Shown here piece by piece: positions 2,110 to 19,567 of a DNA stretch of 64,000 bases. The notes beneath the pieces are model-generated. The model was not told the DNA's origin, made no database searches, and saw only the letters and a list, made by a program, of their open reading frames with translations. The DNA is from Vicinamibacterales bacterium. Its GTDB lineage: Bacteria > Acidobacteriota > Vicinamibacteria > Vicinamibacterales > UBA2999. Made by a program: the position numbers and the translations under genes. Where the stretch lies: positions 1 through 64,000 of the forward strand of contig JAUXWO010000070.1 in NCBI GenBank assembly GCA_030680175.1, given 5' to 3'. Each line of letters starts with the position of its first letter. Position 1 is the stretch's first letter.

Positions 2110-4173
2110 ATGACTACGCACCGTCTGCTCAGGAACCAGCCCGTCCGTGCGGTCGCGGCGCTCAGCCTGGCGATTGCCGCCGGCCTCTGGCTCCACGCCA
2201 GTCCGGGCGCGGGCGCCCGCCAGGCCGAGGGCCCGCGCCCGGGCCTGCCGATCGACGCGCTGGCCGCGACCGTCTGGGTCGAGGAGTTCGACATCTCACC
2301 CGATGGCCGCTCGGTGGCCTACAAGTCGGCGAAGGCCGGCACGTACGACATCTGGATCGCGCCGCTCGCGGGAGGCGGCGAGCCGCGCCAGCTCACCACG
2401 CTCCCCGGCCGGGAGATGGCGCCGAAGTTCAGCCCGGACGGCCGCTGGATCGCCTTCGAAGCCGATCATGGCGGCACGGCCATCTCCGATCTCTACATCG
2501 TTCCCGCGGAAGGCGGCGACCTCGTGCGCCTGACCGACCACCCGCTGAACGACGGCAGCGCGATGTGGGCGCCAGACAGCCGGACGATCTACTTCCAGAC
2601 CGCCATGCACTGGGACGGCGCCATCGCCGCCGTCGACATCACGACGCGCCAGATTCGCCGCGTGCGCGGCGGCGGCGGCGGCCAGATCGCGCTTTCGCCC
2701 GACGGCACGCAGTTCGTCTACACCGGCAATGCCAAGCCGAACGACGATGACCAGAGCAATCGCGACATCTATGTCGCGCCGGTCGGCGAGGGCGAGGCGC
2801 GCCTGCTGACGCCAGACACGCTCGACTGGCTCGACGCGGCGCCCGCGTGGTCACCCGACGGGACGCGTCTCGCATTCGTCTCCGACCGCGGCGGCTTCAA
2901 CAACCTCGGCGTCATCGACGTGGCGACAGGCGCCGTGCGCATGCTCCTCACCGAGGAGGTCGAGCACAGCGAGCCTCGCTGGTCGCCCGACGGCCAGTGG
3001 ATCTCGTTCACGAAGAACCTCGACTACCACTACCACCTCTTCAAGATCCCCGCCGCCGGTGGCGAGGCCGTCCAGTTGACGACGCGCGGCGGCGTGAACG
3101 GCGGCTCGTCCGCCACGGGCCAGACGCGCGGCATGCATCAGTGGCTGCCCGATGGCTCGGGCTTCGCCTACTACCACTCGGATCCGACGATGACGGGGGA
3201 TGTCTGGGTGATGGGCGCCGACGGCGCAAACGCGCGGCAGGTCACGAACCATCAGCACGCCGCACTCCGTGATCCCGGCGCCTTCGTCTGGCCCGAGTTC
3301 ATGGAGTACCGCAGCTTCGACGGGCGCGAGGTCGCGGGCCTGGTCTACAAGCCGAAGGGCGCGCAGGCCGGCGACCGCCTCCCCGCCCTGTTCTTCTTCC
3401 GCGCCAACTCGAATGGCCAGCATCCGGTGCAGTGGAACCCCTATATCCAGTACTTCGTGAGCCGCGGCTATCTCGTATTCGCGCCGAACTTCCGCGGCAG
3501 CACGGGGCGCGGCAAGGAGTACCGCCAGGCCGTCCACACGTGGGGCGGTGATCACGACCTGCGCGACGCGTTCCTCGGGATGGACCGGCTCGCGGCGGAG
3601 GGCTGGGTGGATCCGGCGCGGGTCGGGTCGTTCGGCGGCTCGACGGGCGGGTACTTCGTCACGGCCGCGGCCGTGAAGGATCCCCACCGCTTCAAGGCCG
3701 GCGTCGTCTGGTACGGCGCGACGGATCTGGTCACGCTCTCCACCTATGCGGGGATGGAGGGATGGAACCGCTTCCTGATCGGCAAGACGCCGGTGGAGAA
3801 TCCGTCGAACTACTACGGCCGCTCGATCATCTACCACGCCAACCGCGTGAAGGTGCCGCTGCTGTTCCTCTACGCGCAAGGCGATTCCGCAGCGCGCTTC
3901 CAGCAGATCGAGCAGTACGCCGTGCAGGCGGAGATGCACGGCAACTGGTATGACTGGGCCGTCTACAAGGACGAGCCGCACGGCTGGTACCACTGGCGGC
4001 CCGACAGCGTCCGCCAGTCGCTCGAGGCGATGAGCCGCACGTTCGATCACTTCGTGCTGGGCCAGGCGCACGACATCAAGGGGTTGATGACGGCGCAGCG
4101 CGACGGGATCCGCTTCCAGCGCAACCCGAACATCGAGTTGTGGAACGGCCTGGTCAACGGCCGCGCGCGGTAA
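2110..4173 (+). CDS. Secreted S9-family peptidase (dipeptidyl/acylaminoacyl peptidase type)
   Basis: A 687-aa serine peptidase of the prolyl-oligopeptidase clan that should release small peptides or amino acids in the periplasm. A signal peptide (about residues 1-38, cleaved near GARQA) is followed by a TolB-like WD40/beta-propeller with repeated SPDG motifs (about 50-400) and an alpha/beta hydrolase domain. The triad is Ser511 (GGSTGG), Asp592 (AQGDS) and His624 (EPHGW). The start at 2110 has AAGGAG eight bases upstream; the open frame extends far upstream but that part is antisense to the amidase. A second S9 enzyme lies at 51700-53709. Confidence 0.93.
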   Translation: MTTHRLLRNQPVRAVAALSLAIAAGLWLHASPGAGARQAEGPRPGLPIDALAATVWVEEFDISPDGRSVAYKSAKAGTYDIWIAPLAGGGEPRQLTTLPGREMAPKFSPDGRWIAFEADHGGTAISDLYIVPAEGGDLVRLTDHPLNDGSAMWAPDSRTIYFQTAMHWDGAIAAVDITTRQIRRVRGGGGGQIALSPDGTQFVYTGNAKPNDDDQSNRDIYVAPVGEGEARLLTPDTLDWLDAAPAWSPDGTRLAFVSDRGGFNNLGVIDVATGAVRMLLTEEVEHSEPRWSPDGQWISFTKNLDYHYHLFKIPAAGGEAVQLTTRGGVNGGSSATGQTRGMHQWLPDGSGFAYYHSDPTMTGDVWVMGADGANARQVTNHQHAALRDPGAFVWPEFMEYRSFDGREVAGLVYKPKGAQAGDRLPALFFFRANSNGQHPVQWNPYIQYFVSRGYLVFAPNFRGSTGRGKEYRQAVHTWGGDHDLRDAFLGMDRLAAEGWVDPARVGSFGGSTGGYFVTAAAVKDPHRFKAGVVWYGATDLVTLSTYAGMEGWNRFLIGKTPVENPSNYYGRSIIYHANRVKVPLLFLYAQGDSAARFQQIEQYAVQAEMHGNWYDWAVYKDEPHGWYHWRPDSVRQSLEAMSRTFDHFVLGQAHDIKGLMTAQRDGIRFQRNPNIELWNGLVNGRAR

Positions 4174-4450
4174 CAGCGAACGACGCCCTCGCGTCCGTGG
4201 TCGCCGGGTAGAAGTTACACGGGAGGCCGCAAGGAGTGCGGGGTGTGCGGCTCAGCACATCCCGAACGCGGACGCGCGGGCGGAGGCGTCGCTCACACGC
4301 AATAACCCGCTGAAGATCAACAGCTTCTGACGCTCCCTTCGATACCTCTTCTCCACCGTGACCGGCCGCGCCGCCATCTGGCACCGAGCTTGCCCCGTAC
4401 GGGGCAGGCGGTGACGCGGCGTCACCGCGCCACTTCAAGGGAGGCGTCAG

Positions 4451-4816
4451 ATGAGGAAGTCAGCAGCATTCGCAGTCGTGTTGGCGTCGTTCGTGACGGG
4501 CGCGTGTTCGAACATGCCGTCGCCGACCTCCCCGTCCACCACCATGCCTGCGATGGAGGCCTCTGTGGGCGGCGGCGCCACCACGAACGCCGCCATGGAC
4601 TGGAACCGCACAGCGCCTGGCTGCGCTCCCATCCGCCCGACGCCCGAGGTCGCGGGGCCGCCCACGCACTCCCGCACGCTGCACGAAGGCGAGCTGTACT
4701 TCCGGCCCGGCGCCATCGCTGCCGAGTGGATGCGCGAGAACGACACCGTCTGGGCCGTGTTCTACGAAAGCCCGGCCGGCCACGAACTGTGCCTGTGGGA
4801 TACGGCGGGGATCTGA
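4451..4816 (+). CDS. Small putative lipoprotein
   Basis: A 121-aa protein of unknown function. The N-terminus has a lysine/arginine pair, a short hydrophobic stretch and a plausible lipobox (VTGAC), so it is probably a lipoprotein. The mature part has two further cysteines (APGCAP and HELCLW) and ends WDTAGI. No family was recognised. AAGGGAGG stands seven bases before the ATG. The stop codon is followed directly by the inverted-end element at 4817, as happens at 17902. Confidence 0.75.
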   Translation: MRKSAAFAVVLASFVTGACSNMPSPTSPSTTMPAMEASVGGGATTNAAMDWNRTAPGCAPIRPTPEVAGPPTHSRTLHEGELYFRPGAIAAEWMRENDTVWAVFYESPAGHELCLWDTAGI

Positions 4817-4953
4817 TGGCGTGTCGTTGACGTTCCACGACCGGGCCGCCCGTTGGGCAGCCCGCAGAGTCGCGGGCTGAGCAGAGACGCTGGTAGTACC
4901 ACTTCAGTCGAGACACTCCGCGAGTGTCGCGTGTCGTTGACGATCCACAACGG
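4817..4953. repeat. Copy A (plus partial copy A') of a ~100-bp inverted-end element
   Basis: Bases 4817-4917 match the reverse complement of 17902-18004 at roughly 90 percent by eye. Both begin TGGCGTGT and contain a GGGCCGCCC hairpin arm and the block GCTGGTAGTACC. Copy A starts on the base after the lipoprotein stop codon. A partial second copy (4928-4953, GCGTGTCGTTGACGATCCAC) follows in the same orientation. The junction forms a 6-bp hairpin, GACACT with AGTGTC, at 4912-4928. The rest of the stretch to 5009 holds no gene that I can see. Confidence 0.85.
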
Positions 4954-5009
4954 GAGCGCCGCCTCTCGAGGCATCCCCGCCGTGGAGCGCGAGGCGCCAG
5001 ACGCGAGCG

Positions 5010-15503: not shown

Positions 15504-17072
15504 CTACCGTCCGCGGAGCGTGCGGCCGAGTTCGATGCCGAATTTCGGGTCGCGGCGCGTGCCGTCGACCCTGATCGCCACGCGGGTGCCGGCGCCGTGC
15601 TTGCGGAACAAGGGGTCGAACGGCTTCAGCAGCCACGACCGCACGCCCGTCGTCAGGCGCGAGACCGGCGCGTCGAGCCGCACGTCGCCGCGGAAGGCGA
15701 TCTGCTCGCTCCGCAGCCCGTAGGTCCCCGCCATCTGCACCGCCGCGCCGCGCACCCCGAACGTGAGGAGCGGCAGCGTCAGCACGTTGTCCTTCAGTGC
15801 GAACCTCCCCGTCATGTTCGATACGGCGTCGTCGACGGCCTCGTCACCGGGCCGGCCCTGCGCGCGCTGGCTGAGTTCGTCGATCTTGGCCTGCAGGGCG
15901 GGACTCTGAAACCGCGCCTCGCGCAGCGTGAACGTCCCGTCGATCCAGAGCTTGTCGACCAGGTCCGCCTCGCCCGGCGCGATGTCGAGCCGCGCCTTCC
16001 CCGCCATCATGCCGGTGAGCGGTGGACGGCCGCCATCGACGAGCAGCCGCAGGACGTCGTCGATGCGCGCGCTGGTGGCGGTGACGTCGACGGTCAGGTG
16101 GCGGCCGGGGCCTTCGGCGGTGCGCACGATGGCGCCGGTCACCTCGAAGGCGGAGCCCCCAAGCCGGGCGCCCACCCTGGTCAGATAGACATCGCCATTG
16201 GTGCCGTCCACGACCGCGTCGAAGGCCGTCTCGAGCGGCACCGGCGTGTTGGTCAGGGTCGGGAGCCGGAAGTCGGGCGTGCGGGTCGACCCGGTGGCGG
16301 TGATGCGCTCGATGACGCCGGCGAAGGATCCCCCGGACTCGAGGGTCCCGGCGATGCCCGTGATCGTCGCGAGGTCCGCGTTGAACGTGAACGCGCCATC
16401 AAGCGGGGTGAGGCTCGGTTCGTCGGTCTGCCACGGCCCGAAGCGTCCCCGGCCCTCGACGATCCCGGTGGGCGTGGGCACCGTAAGCGCAGCCGTGAAG
16501 TCGGCCGGCCCATCGAGGCGGACATCGGTCAACTCCAGGGTGTGGATGTCGAAGACACGCGGCTTCTTCCCGGGGTCGCGCGAGAGCACCGTCAGGCGGG
16601 TATTGGCGGCCACGAGGCGCCCGATGACCGGCGGCGCCGAATCGTCCTCGAGATCGGCGGGGGCGCCCCCGCCCCCGAGGTGCGGCATCTCCTCGCGGCG
16701 GCGGGGCGGGATCGTGATCTCGAGGCCGTCGAGCGTGACCTCCTCGATGCGTCGGGCGAAGAAGCCGCGGAACCCGGCCGTGCCAGCGAACTGCCGCACG
16801 GCGATCACGGGCGGGATGTCGGTGCGTCCCTGGTAGCGCAACACCAGGCCATGCCCGGCGAGCCGCGGCGACGGCCAGAGCGACACCTCCACCCCGTCGA
16901 GTTGCACCTCGCTGTCGAAGCGCGCCTCGAGTCCACGGACGATGGCGGCGCGCAACTCGGGCTCGGCGCGGCGCACGACCACCACGGCCGCCACGGTGAG
17001 GCCAACGGCCACGGTCGCGACGGCCACCGCCACGATGGTCCAAAGGCGCCTCGGTCGCTCAAGGAAATGCAT
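15504..17072 (-). CDS. AsmA-family protein
   Basis: A 522-aa protein with one N-terminal membrane anchor (WTIVAVAVATVAVGLTVAAVVVV, about 11-33). A long periplasmic beta-rich region follows, with the AsmA-type motif GLEARFDSEVQLDGVEVSLWPSP and a C-terminal stretch ending LRGR. AsmA-like proteins act in the envelope, probably in lipid transport or outer-membrane homeostasis. The start MHFLER at 17072 places the anchor at the N-terminus; the open frame continues upstream but without protein-like sequence. It is divergent from the methyltransferase gene. Confidence 0.85.
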   Translation of the reverse strand: MHFLERPRRLWTIVAVAVATVAVGLTVAAVVVVRRAEPELRAAIVRGLEARFDSEVQLDGVEVSLWPSPRLAGHGLVLRYQGRTDIPPVIAVRQFAGTAGFRGFFARRIEEVTLDGLEITIPPRRREEMPHLGGGGAPADLEDDSAPPVIGRLVAANTRLTVLSRDPGKKPRVFDIHTLELTDVRLDGPADFTAALTVPTPTGIVEGRGRFGPWQTDEPSLTPLDGAFTFNADLATITGIAGTLESGGSFAGVIERITATGSTRTPDFRLPTLTNTPVPLETAFDAVVDGTNGDVYLTRVGARLGGSAFEVTGAIVRTAEGPGRHLTVDVTATSARIDDVLRLLVDGGRPPLTGMMAGKARLDIAPGEADLVDKLWIDGTFTLREARFQSPALQAKIDELSQRAQGRPGDEAVDDAVSNMTGRFALKDNVLTLPLLTFGVRGAAVQMAGTYGLRSEQIAFRGDVRLDAPVSRLTTGVRSWLLKPFDPLFRKHGAGTRVAIRVDGTRRDPKFGIELGRTLRGR

Positions 17073-17136
17073 CTGTGCGCCGTCCGGCGCCGGGGCCACG
17101 CGTGCAGCGGCACCGCGGTCATTGTACCGTGAAGGG

Positions 17137-17901
17137 GTGACCCCGCCGTCCTCGCCCGTCTTCGACGCCTGGCTCGCCGCCCTCGAAGCGCGCCACCTGG
17201 CCGACCTGCGCTTCCCCGAGGTGGTGCGGGCGCTGCGCGCGCTGTCCTCCACCTACGTGGAACGCCGCGCGCGGCTGGCCTCGCGCGGTTCGCTCGACAC
17301 CGACGGCAAGCGCGCCGCCTTCGCGCTCTATTACGGCCCCGTGCACTGGCTGCTGGTGCAGGCGATCGCACGCGCCCTCCCGGGGGCCCTGGCCCCGGCG
17401 CGGCGGCTGCTCGACCTCGGCTGCGGATCCGGCGCGGCCGGGGCGGCGTGGGCCACGCTGCTGACACCGCCGCCCGCGATCGCCGGACTCGACCTGCACC
17501 CGTGGGCGGTCCGCGAAGCGACGCTGACCTACCGTCACGTGGGACTCGATGGCGAGGCGCGGCGCGGGCACGCCGAACGCGCGCGCTGGCCTCGCGCCGA
17601 TGCGGTGCTGGCGGCGTTCCTCGCCAACGAACTCGGCGAGGCGGATCGCGAGGCGCTGCTGGCCCGGCTGCTGGAGCAGGCGCACGGCGGCGCGCGCGTC
17701 CTGGTGATCGAACCGCTCTCCACCTCGGTCGCCCCCTGGTGGCCGATGTGGGCCGACGCCATCGTCCGCGCCGGCGGCCGCGCCGACGAGTGGCGTCACG
17801 ACGTGCCGTTGCCGCCCATCGTCACGCGCCTGGCCGACGCCGCGGGGCTGCGGCCGAAGGGCGTGGCGGGGCGGAGCCTCTGGCTCCCGGGGCGCGGCTA
17901 G
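17137..17901 (+). CDS. Class I SAM-dependent methyltransferase
   Basis: A 254-aa protein with the SAM-binding loop LLDLGCGSGAAG (about residue 90) and an acidic loop two strands on (AGLDLHPWAV). The segment before it (ALYYGPVHWLLVQ) resembles Rsm22-like rRNA methyltransferases, but that is a weak similarity and the substrate is unknown. A GTG at 17137 is the likely start, with GAAGGG just before it; no ATG fits. Its stop codon is followed at once by the inverted-end element. Confidence 0.8.
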   Translation: MTPPSSPVFDAWLAALEARHLADLRFPEVVRALRALSSTYVERRARLASRGSLDTDGKRAAFALYYGPVHWLLVQAIARALPGALAPARRLLDLGCGSGAAGAAWATLLTPPPAIAGLDLHPWAVREATLTYRHVGLDGEARRGHAERARWPRADAVLAAFLANELGEADREALLARLLEQAHGGARVLVIEPLSTSVAPWWPMWADAIVRAGGRADEWRHDVPLPPIVTRLADAAGLRPKGVAGRSLWLPGRG

Positions 17902-18004
17902 TGGCGTGTGTCGACTGAAGAGGTACTACCAGCGCCTCTGCGCAGCCGCGTTCCTGCGGGCCGCCCAACGGGCGGCCCGGTCGTGAATCGTCAACAACAC
18001 GCCA
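17902..18004. repeat. Copy B of the ~100-bp inverted-end element, filling a convergent gap
   Basis: This 103-bp element takes up every base between the stop of the methyltransferase (17899-17901) and the stop of the HD-GYP gene (18005-18007). Its ends are inverted: TGGCGTGTGTCGAC on the left and GTCAACAACACGCCA on the right, both flanked by CTAG. Inside is a 9-bp hairpin, GGGCCGCCC-AAC-GGGCGGCCC. It is the reverse complement of copy A at 4817. It looks like a non-autonomous mobile element or a shared bidirectional terminator. Confidence 0.88.
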
Positions 18005-19549
18005 CTAGACCGGCTCGATCGGCAGCGCGAGCTCGCCGCGGGCGTGCAGCGCCACCGCCGCCGCGACGACGGCCGGATCGAAGGCGCGGCCCGACTGCTC
18101 CTGGATCATCCCGACCACCTCGTCGAGGGAGAGCCCCGAGCGGTAGGCGCGCTCGGAGGTGAGCGCGTCGATGAAGTCCGCGACGCCCAGGACCCGCCCG
18201 AGCAGCGGAATCGCGTCACCGGCGATCCCTTCGGGATAGCCCGCGCCGTCCCACCGTTCGTGGTGGCACTTCACCCCCGGGAGCAGCGCCGTGATGCGCG
18301 CGCTCTGGATATGCCCGAGGATGCGGACGCCGTGCAGGGGATGCCGCTGGATCTCCTTGAACTCCTCGTCGGTGAGGCGCCCCGGCTTGTTCAGGATGGC
18401 GTCGGGCACGCCGATCTTGCCGACATCGTGCAGCAACCCCGACAGCTCGACGATGGTGCGGAACTCGGTGTCGCAGCCGAGTTCGCGCGCCAGGCGGACA
18501 CCGAAGGCCGCCACGCGCTCCGAATGCCGGTGCGTGTAGCCGTCCTTGGCGTCGATGGTGGCGGCAATCGCCTTCATCACGTCGAGGAACAGCCGCTCCA
18601 TCTCGTCCATCAACCGCGCGCGGTGCACGGCCACGCCGGCCTGGTTGCCGATGGCCGCCAGCAGCTCCAGGTCCGCCTCGCTGAACTCGTGCGCGCTCTG
18701 GCTGTCGACGTAGAGCACGCCCAGCACGCGCTCGGTCGTCCGCATCGGCGCGCACATCACGGACCGGATGCGTTGCCGCACGATGCTCTCGCCCGCCCCG
18801 TAGCGCGCATCCGCCAGCGCGTCGTTGGTGAACGCCGACATGCCGCGCTCGATCACATCGTTGATCACGGTGCGCGACAGCACCATGCCGGCCGTGCTCG
18901 ACTGCTGGTCCCGCGCGCGGACCGCGGCGACGGCCACCGCGGGCGCCTCCGGGTCCGTGCCCTTGAGCAGAATCGCGGCGCGATCGCCGCCGCTGGCCTC
19001 GATCACGGCGCCGAGCACCACGTCGTACAAGCCCTCGAGCGTCGAGGCCCGTGCGAGTTCCTCGCTCACCCGGTGCACGGTCGCGAGGTACCGCTGCGCG
19101 TCCTCGAGGGCCGCGCGGTCCTGCCGGCTGAACATCGCCGTCAGGAACTCGGGCCGCGCCGGGTCGAGCGCCCGCCGGACGATCGTCTGCCCGTGATCGT
19201 CGCCCACGACCGACAGCATCGTGCTCATCGGGTCGCGCCCGGCGGCCGCGCCCCCGCCCGCGCCGAGGCACTCGAACACCGTACCGCCGATGCGAATCCG
19301 GTCGCCGGGCTGGACCTCAACCGTCGAGACGCGCTGGTCGTTCACGAACGTGCCGTTGGCCGACTGCAGGTCGGCCACCACGCACGCGTCCTCGCGCCCA
19401 TGCAGCGCGCAATGCCGCCGCGACGCCGCCTCGTCGTCGAGCGGCACGTCGCAGGTCGTCAGCCGGCCGATCGTGACGGTCTGCCCCGGCGCCACGACCA
19501 CCGATTTCCCCGCATCGGCGCCCGTGCGGATGACGAAGGAGAAGAGCAT
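18005..19549 (-). CDS. FHA-GAF-HD-GYP signalling protein
   Basis: A 514-aa cytoplasmic protein with three domains: FHA (about 1-100; GRLTTCDVPLDD, SRRHC, SANGTFVND), which binds phosphothreonine; GAF (about 150-310), a sensor domain; and HD-GYP (about 320-514) with HDVGKIGVPD, NKPGRL and HHERWDGAGYP. HD-GYP domains hydrolyse c-di-GMP. The combination suggests c-di-GMP turnover governed by Ser/Thr kinase signalling. The start MLFSFVIR at 19549 begins the FHA fold directly; 19564 would add five residues. It is divergent from ligD with only about 20 bases between starts. Confidence 0.93.
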   Translation of the reverse strand: MLFSFVIRTGADAGKSVVVAPGQTVTIGRLTTCDVPLDDEAASRRHCALHGREDACVVADLQSANGTFVNDQRVSTVEVQPGDRIRIGGTVFECLGAGGGAAAGRDPMSTMLSVVGDDHGQTIVRRALDPARPEFLTAMFSRQDRAALEDAQRYLATVHRVSEELARASTLEGLYDVVLGAVIEASGGDRAAILLKGTDPEAPAVAVAAVRARDQQSSTAGMVLSRTVINDVIERGMSAFTNDALADARYGAGESIVRQRIRSVMCAPMRTTERVLGVLYVDSQSAHEFSEADLELLAAIGNQAGVAVHRARLMDEMERLFLDVMKAIAATIDAKDGYTHRHSERVAAFGVRLARELGCDTEFRTIVELSGLLHDVGKIGVPDAILNKPGRLTDEEFKEIQRHPLHGVRILGHIQSARITALLPGVKCHHERWDGAGYPEGIAGDAIPLLGRVLGVADFIDALTSERAYRSGLSLDEVVGMIQEQSGRAFDPAVVAAAVALHARGELALPIEPV

Positions 19550-19551
19550 GG

Positions 19552-19567
19552 GGGATGCTAGCATCCC
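19552..19567. promoter_or_regulatory. Perfect 16-bp palindrome between divergent starts
   Basis: GGGATGCTAGCATCCC is a perfect palindrome lying in the roughly 20 bases between the starts of the FHA-HD-GYP gene (19549) and ligD (19569/19572). It is a candidate operator for both. Neither gene has a normal ribosome binding site here, so one or both starts may lie elsewhere or be leaderless. Confidence 0.5.

Follow-up and report, generated by a model that had tools for sequence, protein, structure and literature searches.

The pneumococcal RUP is described as a repeat of 107 bp, present in about 108 copies, with IS630-like terminal repeats, TA target sites and IS630-Spn1 as its partner (PMC2229807, PMC3049150). 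RUP is reportedly AT-rich and situated near or in IS elements, and gene disruptions by it have been reported. The Correia elements, or Neisseria miniature insertion sequences, are likewise short mobile repeats and have a 107-bp form, which is reportedly often fused in reading frames (PMC2229807). For the IS630 family, a bacterial transposase is reported to insert at TA in vitro, with duplication of the TA (PMC2170065).

By length, copy number and type of partner, the only properties compared, RUP is the closest known kind to the element analyzed here, which measures 105-107 bp and has at least 105 copies. Unlike RUP, it is GC-rich and restricted to CTAG, it lies in a called gene at 0 of 94 loci, and the assembly lacks a copy of its partner IS. 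It also differs from the Correia form fused in reading frames; going by their description, host and sequence of Correia are unrelated to those of our element. IS630 of Shigella sonnei, an autonomous IS and in this unlike a MITE, reportedly prefers the TA in CTAG (so the title of a 1991 paper by Tenzen and Ohtsubo), and it is likened to our element through this preference only. A literature search that covered few subscription journals returned nothing on IS630 MITEs in Acidobacteria, and nothing linking CTAG, stop codons and convergent genes with transposition.

The window (the whole stretch of 64,000 nucleotides that was analyzed) comes from a Vicinamibacterales bacterium. The earlier note described an element of about 100 bp that exactly fills the gap between two convergent genes, and this was confirmed for the 103-bp repeat: the stop codons at 17899-17901 (plus strand) and 18005-18007 (minus strand) abut the core (Table 1). 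The inverted ends, with CTAG on both sides of 17902-18004, were as described, and the terminal inverted repeats read TGGCGTGT...ACACGCCA. The strong central hairpin was also found, with a 10-bp stem at 17957-17979, and the consensus folds better than shuffled sequences. If the partner is an IS630, the element proper comprises 105 bp, from the G at 17901 to the C at 18005, and TA alone is duplicated. A second copy in reverse orientation, said to start at 4817 just after a stop codon, is real though degenerate, being flanked by the tetranucleotides CTCG and TCAG in place of CTAG.

Table 1. Positions of the repeat copies, their borders and the neighboring genes in the window, and of other repeats (L numbers).
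Feature	Position	Strand	Remarks
MITE copy, 105 bp, GTGG...CCAC	17901..18005	+	103-bp core is 17902-18004
Left CTAG	17898..17901	.	Target C, duplicated TA (17899-17900), element G; TA length inferred from the IS630 family
Right CTAG	18005..18008	.	Element C, duplicated TA (18006-18007), target G
Central perfect 10-bp hairpin, CGGGCCGCCC-AAC-GGGCGGCCCG	17957..17979	.	AAC loop; read from sequence; consensus folds
Methyltransferase gene	16942..17901	+	TAG stop 17899-17901 is TA plus the element's G
FHA-GAF-HD gene	18005..19564	-	TAG stop 18005-18007 is TA plus the element's terminal base
Second, degenerate copy	4817..4919	-	87% identical; abuts TGA stop at 4814-4816
Third-copy fragment, right end	4929..4960	-	32 bp
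Family B copy	L062 2900-3002
Family B copy	L077 7038-7140
Family B copy	L116 2819-2921
Family B copy	L120 2906-3008
Family B copy	L086 3081-3183
Family B copy	L048 2849-2951
Short two-left-end palindrome	L051 ~4253-4307
Short two-left-end palindrome	L066 ~3098-3152
Short two-left-end palindrome	L091 ~2978-3041
Short two-left-end palindrome	L143 near 916

The host genome (G000) is a draft of 4.98 Mb in 143 contigs. A BLAST-type search of it gave at least 50 matches, with 40 of the 150 initial candidates scored. Genome-wide pattern searches allowing up to three mismatches found the left end 105 times and the right end 100 times, and the reversed-pattern controls gave 0 matches each, which puts the repeat well outside what chance would produce. 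When nhmmer was applied to the stretches around the end matches (83 sequences including the window, 657,858 bases), 122 hits were obtained, of which 105 were full length and 17 were left out as partial, resulting in a copy number of at least 105. The ends GTGG...CCAC are fixed across the full-length copies, and the core is exactly 103 bp in 91 of the 105. The consensus runs from TGGAGTGTATCGACTGAAGAGGTACTACC... to ...CGTCAACGACACTCCA, with terminal repeats identical at 11 of 20 positions (209 of 20,000 shuffles were as good). Adjacent tandem copies have one CTAG in common and a period of 107. That the repeat is a MITE is thus supported: it is short and non-coding and occurs in many dispersed copies with fixed ends. 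A lack of further copies or of fixed ends had been named in the earlier note as results that would speak against its reading, and neither occurred.

CTAG was found on both sides of 48 of the 105 copies, on the left of 72 and on the right of 63. Divergence was tested with the 91 copies whose core measures 103 bp, the 14 of other lengths being left out; the 50 nearest to the consensus had 1.60 CTAG per two flanks, whereas the 28 copies of the bottom group had 0.96 (Mann-Whitney p 0.003, n=91). Since CTAG is kept more often in copies nearer the consensus, mutated flanks mostly represent decay rather than other targets.

A further group of repeats, termed family B, also measures 103 bp between CTAGs, and has a largely different interior with a hairpin of the GGGCCGTTCC type. 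Seven matches, six of them strong, were present in the fetched DNA of the host genome, and elements resembling family B were seen in two other genomes (G033 and G064). We also observed short palindromes of approximately 55-75 bp that are built from two left ends and flanked by CTAG-like borders.

A search of the 162 genomes of the order, which belongs to Acidobacteriota, with a 107-nt relative from G145 as query gave matches in 19 genomes, the host genome included and some matches being short; these span 17 of 86 genera and five family labels. The 23 elements extracted from relatives were 104-107 bp long with terminal G and C, except for a 115-bp element that has an additional hairpin. A named genome collection yielded five matching stretches, four in Acidobacteriota MAGs and one in Marinobacter; the latter (L140) is without the right end and probably a chance match. 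The stretches from JAHFUO010000019 and JAQBVV010000132 resemble those of G014 and G017, two genomes of the window's family, and on this basis the window is assigned to Acidobacteriota. A match in a viral contig (L145) comprises the left end only. Arrays of simple CTAGTGG repeats of the CTAGTGGCTAGTGG type in G045 (L127) and G096 (L126) are unrelated, L137 and L138 look unrelated to the element, and none of these were counted. In two elements of relatives (L194, which is G145:C202, and L144 near 4774) the hairpin region contains a foreign GC hairpin, GGGGTCCCC...GCGGTGGGG, which may be a second small repeat inserted into the first.

Genes were called with a home-made codon-usage gene caller. 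The 105 copies make up the 94 loci, none of which is inside a called gene. Exact abutment to a stop codon was found at 56 loci (60%), and on both sides only at the window locus. For comparison, the unoccupied CTAG sites in 676,361 bases of host DNA were distributed with 50 at stop codons, 31 at other intergenic positions and 10 in genes, stops making up 50 of the 81 non-genic sites (62%). Because element loci (56/94) and empty CTAG sites (50/81) are so alike, stop-specific targeting is not needed, and the coincidence with stop codons is a by-product of the CTAG target. The target preference suggested in the earlier note is supported, but the target is the palindromic CTAG and not TAG/TGA followed by T. 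In this 676-kb DNA, element borders included, CTAG was counted 231 times compared to 1845 expected from base composition, a roughly eightfold depletion, and in the window 10 times compared to 171. Genes make up about 87% of the bases but contain only 10 of the 91 unoccupied sites. Observed/expected ratios for other genomes were dropped, since the loci had been chosen for containing CTAG.

Six genomes from a related genus contain orthologues of the FHA-GAF-HD protein with 63-64% identity. In five of these the methyltransferase gene is the convergent neighbor and no element lies between the two, with stop-to-stop distances of -17, -4, 0, 6, and 0 bases; in the sixth (L208, G063) no methyltransferase gene was detected next to the FHA-GAF-HD gene. 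In G001, the genome with a distance of -4, a single CTAG serves as stop of both convergent genes, which is the arrangement predicted before insertion. This CTAG need not correspond to that ancestral site, because the FHA-GAF-HD protein extends nine residues past the alignment.

The ends of the element resemble those of IS630 elements. An intact, autonomous IS630 of 1095 bp is located at 109-1203 of L177 in G149, a genome of the same order, bordered by C-TA before GTGGCCTGTATCCACTGAAT... and by TA-G after ...CCAC. Unlike the MITE it encodes a transposase, of 350 aa, which matches PF13358 (DDE_3; E 9.2e-25) and contains helix-turn-helix domains. The terminal 20 bp are similar: the left end of the MITE agrees with the left end of this IS630 at 16/20 positions and with an IS630 end in G153 at 17/20 (0 of 20,000 shuffles were as good), while the right end agrees less well with IS630 ends (9-11/20). 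CTA and TAG also border four further IS630 copies (L176, L178, L179, and L180). A pattern search of the 162 genomes found the MITE-type end in G153 beside a C-terminus that we read as that of an IS630 transposase. At the same site (L146, G153:C437) a 452-aa ORF on the minus strand lies at a CTAG adjoining the IS630 end; it is presumably an IS701-like transposase, recognized by eye, so that two IS families would meet at one CTAG. A PF13358 profile search detected the family in 10 of the 17 entries searched, with 0 matches in the host genome (draft, 143 contigs). Inspection for an autonomous copy in the host genome revealed partial right and left ends, with no transposase reading frame seen. As the host assembly is without a detectable IS630 transposase, the IS630 partner is a putative one; a partner in the same genome is usual for such MITEs but not strictly necessary. 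The transposase with matching ends that the earlier note proposed to look for was found as IS630 in the relative G149, and not in the host genome. Based on the IS630 borders and the insertion of this family at TA, we regard GTGG...CCAC (105 bp) as the element and only TA as duplicated. We consider the repeat to be a 105-bp non-autonomous MITE of the IS630/Tc1-mariner type that is moved in trans by an IS630 transposase (probability about 0.88).

The CTAG borders fit a TA duplication and a 4-bp CTAG duplication alike. The repeat might be a MITE of a DDE family that duplicates 4 bp (IS5 or IS701 type, whose targets are YTAR), with the 103-bp core as the element and CTAG as the duplication. The borders are indeed whole CTAG tetranucleotides, the family B copy L048 has an identical non-CTAG tetranucleotide on both sides, which favors a 4-bp duplication, and the ORF that we read as IS701-like adjoins the IS630 end in G153. 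However, it is IS630 elements that have the matching ends, paired TTAG/TTAG or CTAA/CTAA flanks occur in 0 of the 105 copies, and PF13546 (DDE_5) gave 0 matches in the host genome, on which ground an IS701 partner was rejected; we regard this origin as improbable. The REP-type reading of the earlier note, in which a RAYT (Y1) transposase would mobilize a REP/REPIN element, draws on the high copy number, the intergenic location and the GTGG within CTAGTGG, GTGG being one tetranucleotide reported for REPs. It conflicts with the symmetric terminal repeats, and in its CTAG borders as in its IS630-like ends the repeat has the form of a DDE (IS630) element; a motif search of about 13% of the host genome recognized no RAYT-like HxH protein, and we give this reading next to no weight.

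The remaining suggestion was that of a conserved bidirectional terminator of transcription; selection would then have spread it to places where convergent genes end. The strong hairpin and the fold of the whole element (z -3.2 on one strand and -4.6 on the other relative to shuffles) agree with this, as do the 26 of 94 loci at convergent gene pairs, 23 of them with an exact stop. Against it, stops are as frequent at empty CTAG sites as at element loci, and at single-copy loci the element was oriented like the abutting gene 26 times and opposite to it 26 times (multi-copy arrays left out). A search for terminator-like sites (a GC hairpin followed by a T-run) at 17700-18200 found none, and the same gene pair does without the element in the five relatives. 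RNAalifold predicted six pairs, with 0 compensatory, in an alignment of 40 sequences (24 diverse copies out of the 91 of 103 bp plus 16 relatives), and a conserved RNA is for this reason not claimed. For the family as a whole, a role in termination is unsupported and is very improbable as its origin, although single copies could be used or exapted as terminators.

For the IS630-type MITE we propose the following mechanism. An IS630 transposase acting in trans would bind the GTGG... terminal repeats, excise the element and insert it at the TA of CTAG, with the TA being duplicated. In the host genome, with 70% GC, CTAG is strongly depleted and outside genes is mostly part of a C-TAG stop codon, so that insertions would mostly land on stops. 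The duplicated TA and the terminal G of the element would rebuild a TAG stop on each side, and two convergent genes sharing one CTAG would thereby both keep their stops. The partner IS630 would have been lost from the host genome, or be missing from its assembly. In this scheme we infer the transposition in trans, the duplication of TA rather than 4 bp, and the lost or unassembled partner.

The filling of a gap between two stop codons is in this way explained by known transposition chemistry together with genome composition. The element belongs to a known kind, the IS630-type MITE, and its interest lies in the quantified stop-codon effect: the numbers show how a transposon can insert almost without harm owing to the sequence that it targets. 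In annotation such repeats are to be treated as neither genes nor proven terminators. The length of 105-107 bp common to this element, RUP and Correia may reflect a mechanical optimum of IS630-type transposition. Because the target CTAG survives mainly at stop codons, the element can spread with neighboring genes intact, and the element and the depletion of CTAG in its host may each have shaped the other. We tentatively suggest, as a possibility more doubtful than likely, that the depletion of genic CTAG and the rebuilding of TAG have provided this IS630 MITE lineage with a stop-codon niche of nearly harmless targets. If true, such a niche would account for the persistence of the lineage in many families of a single order.
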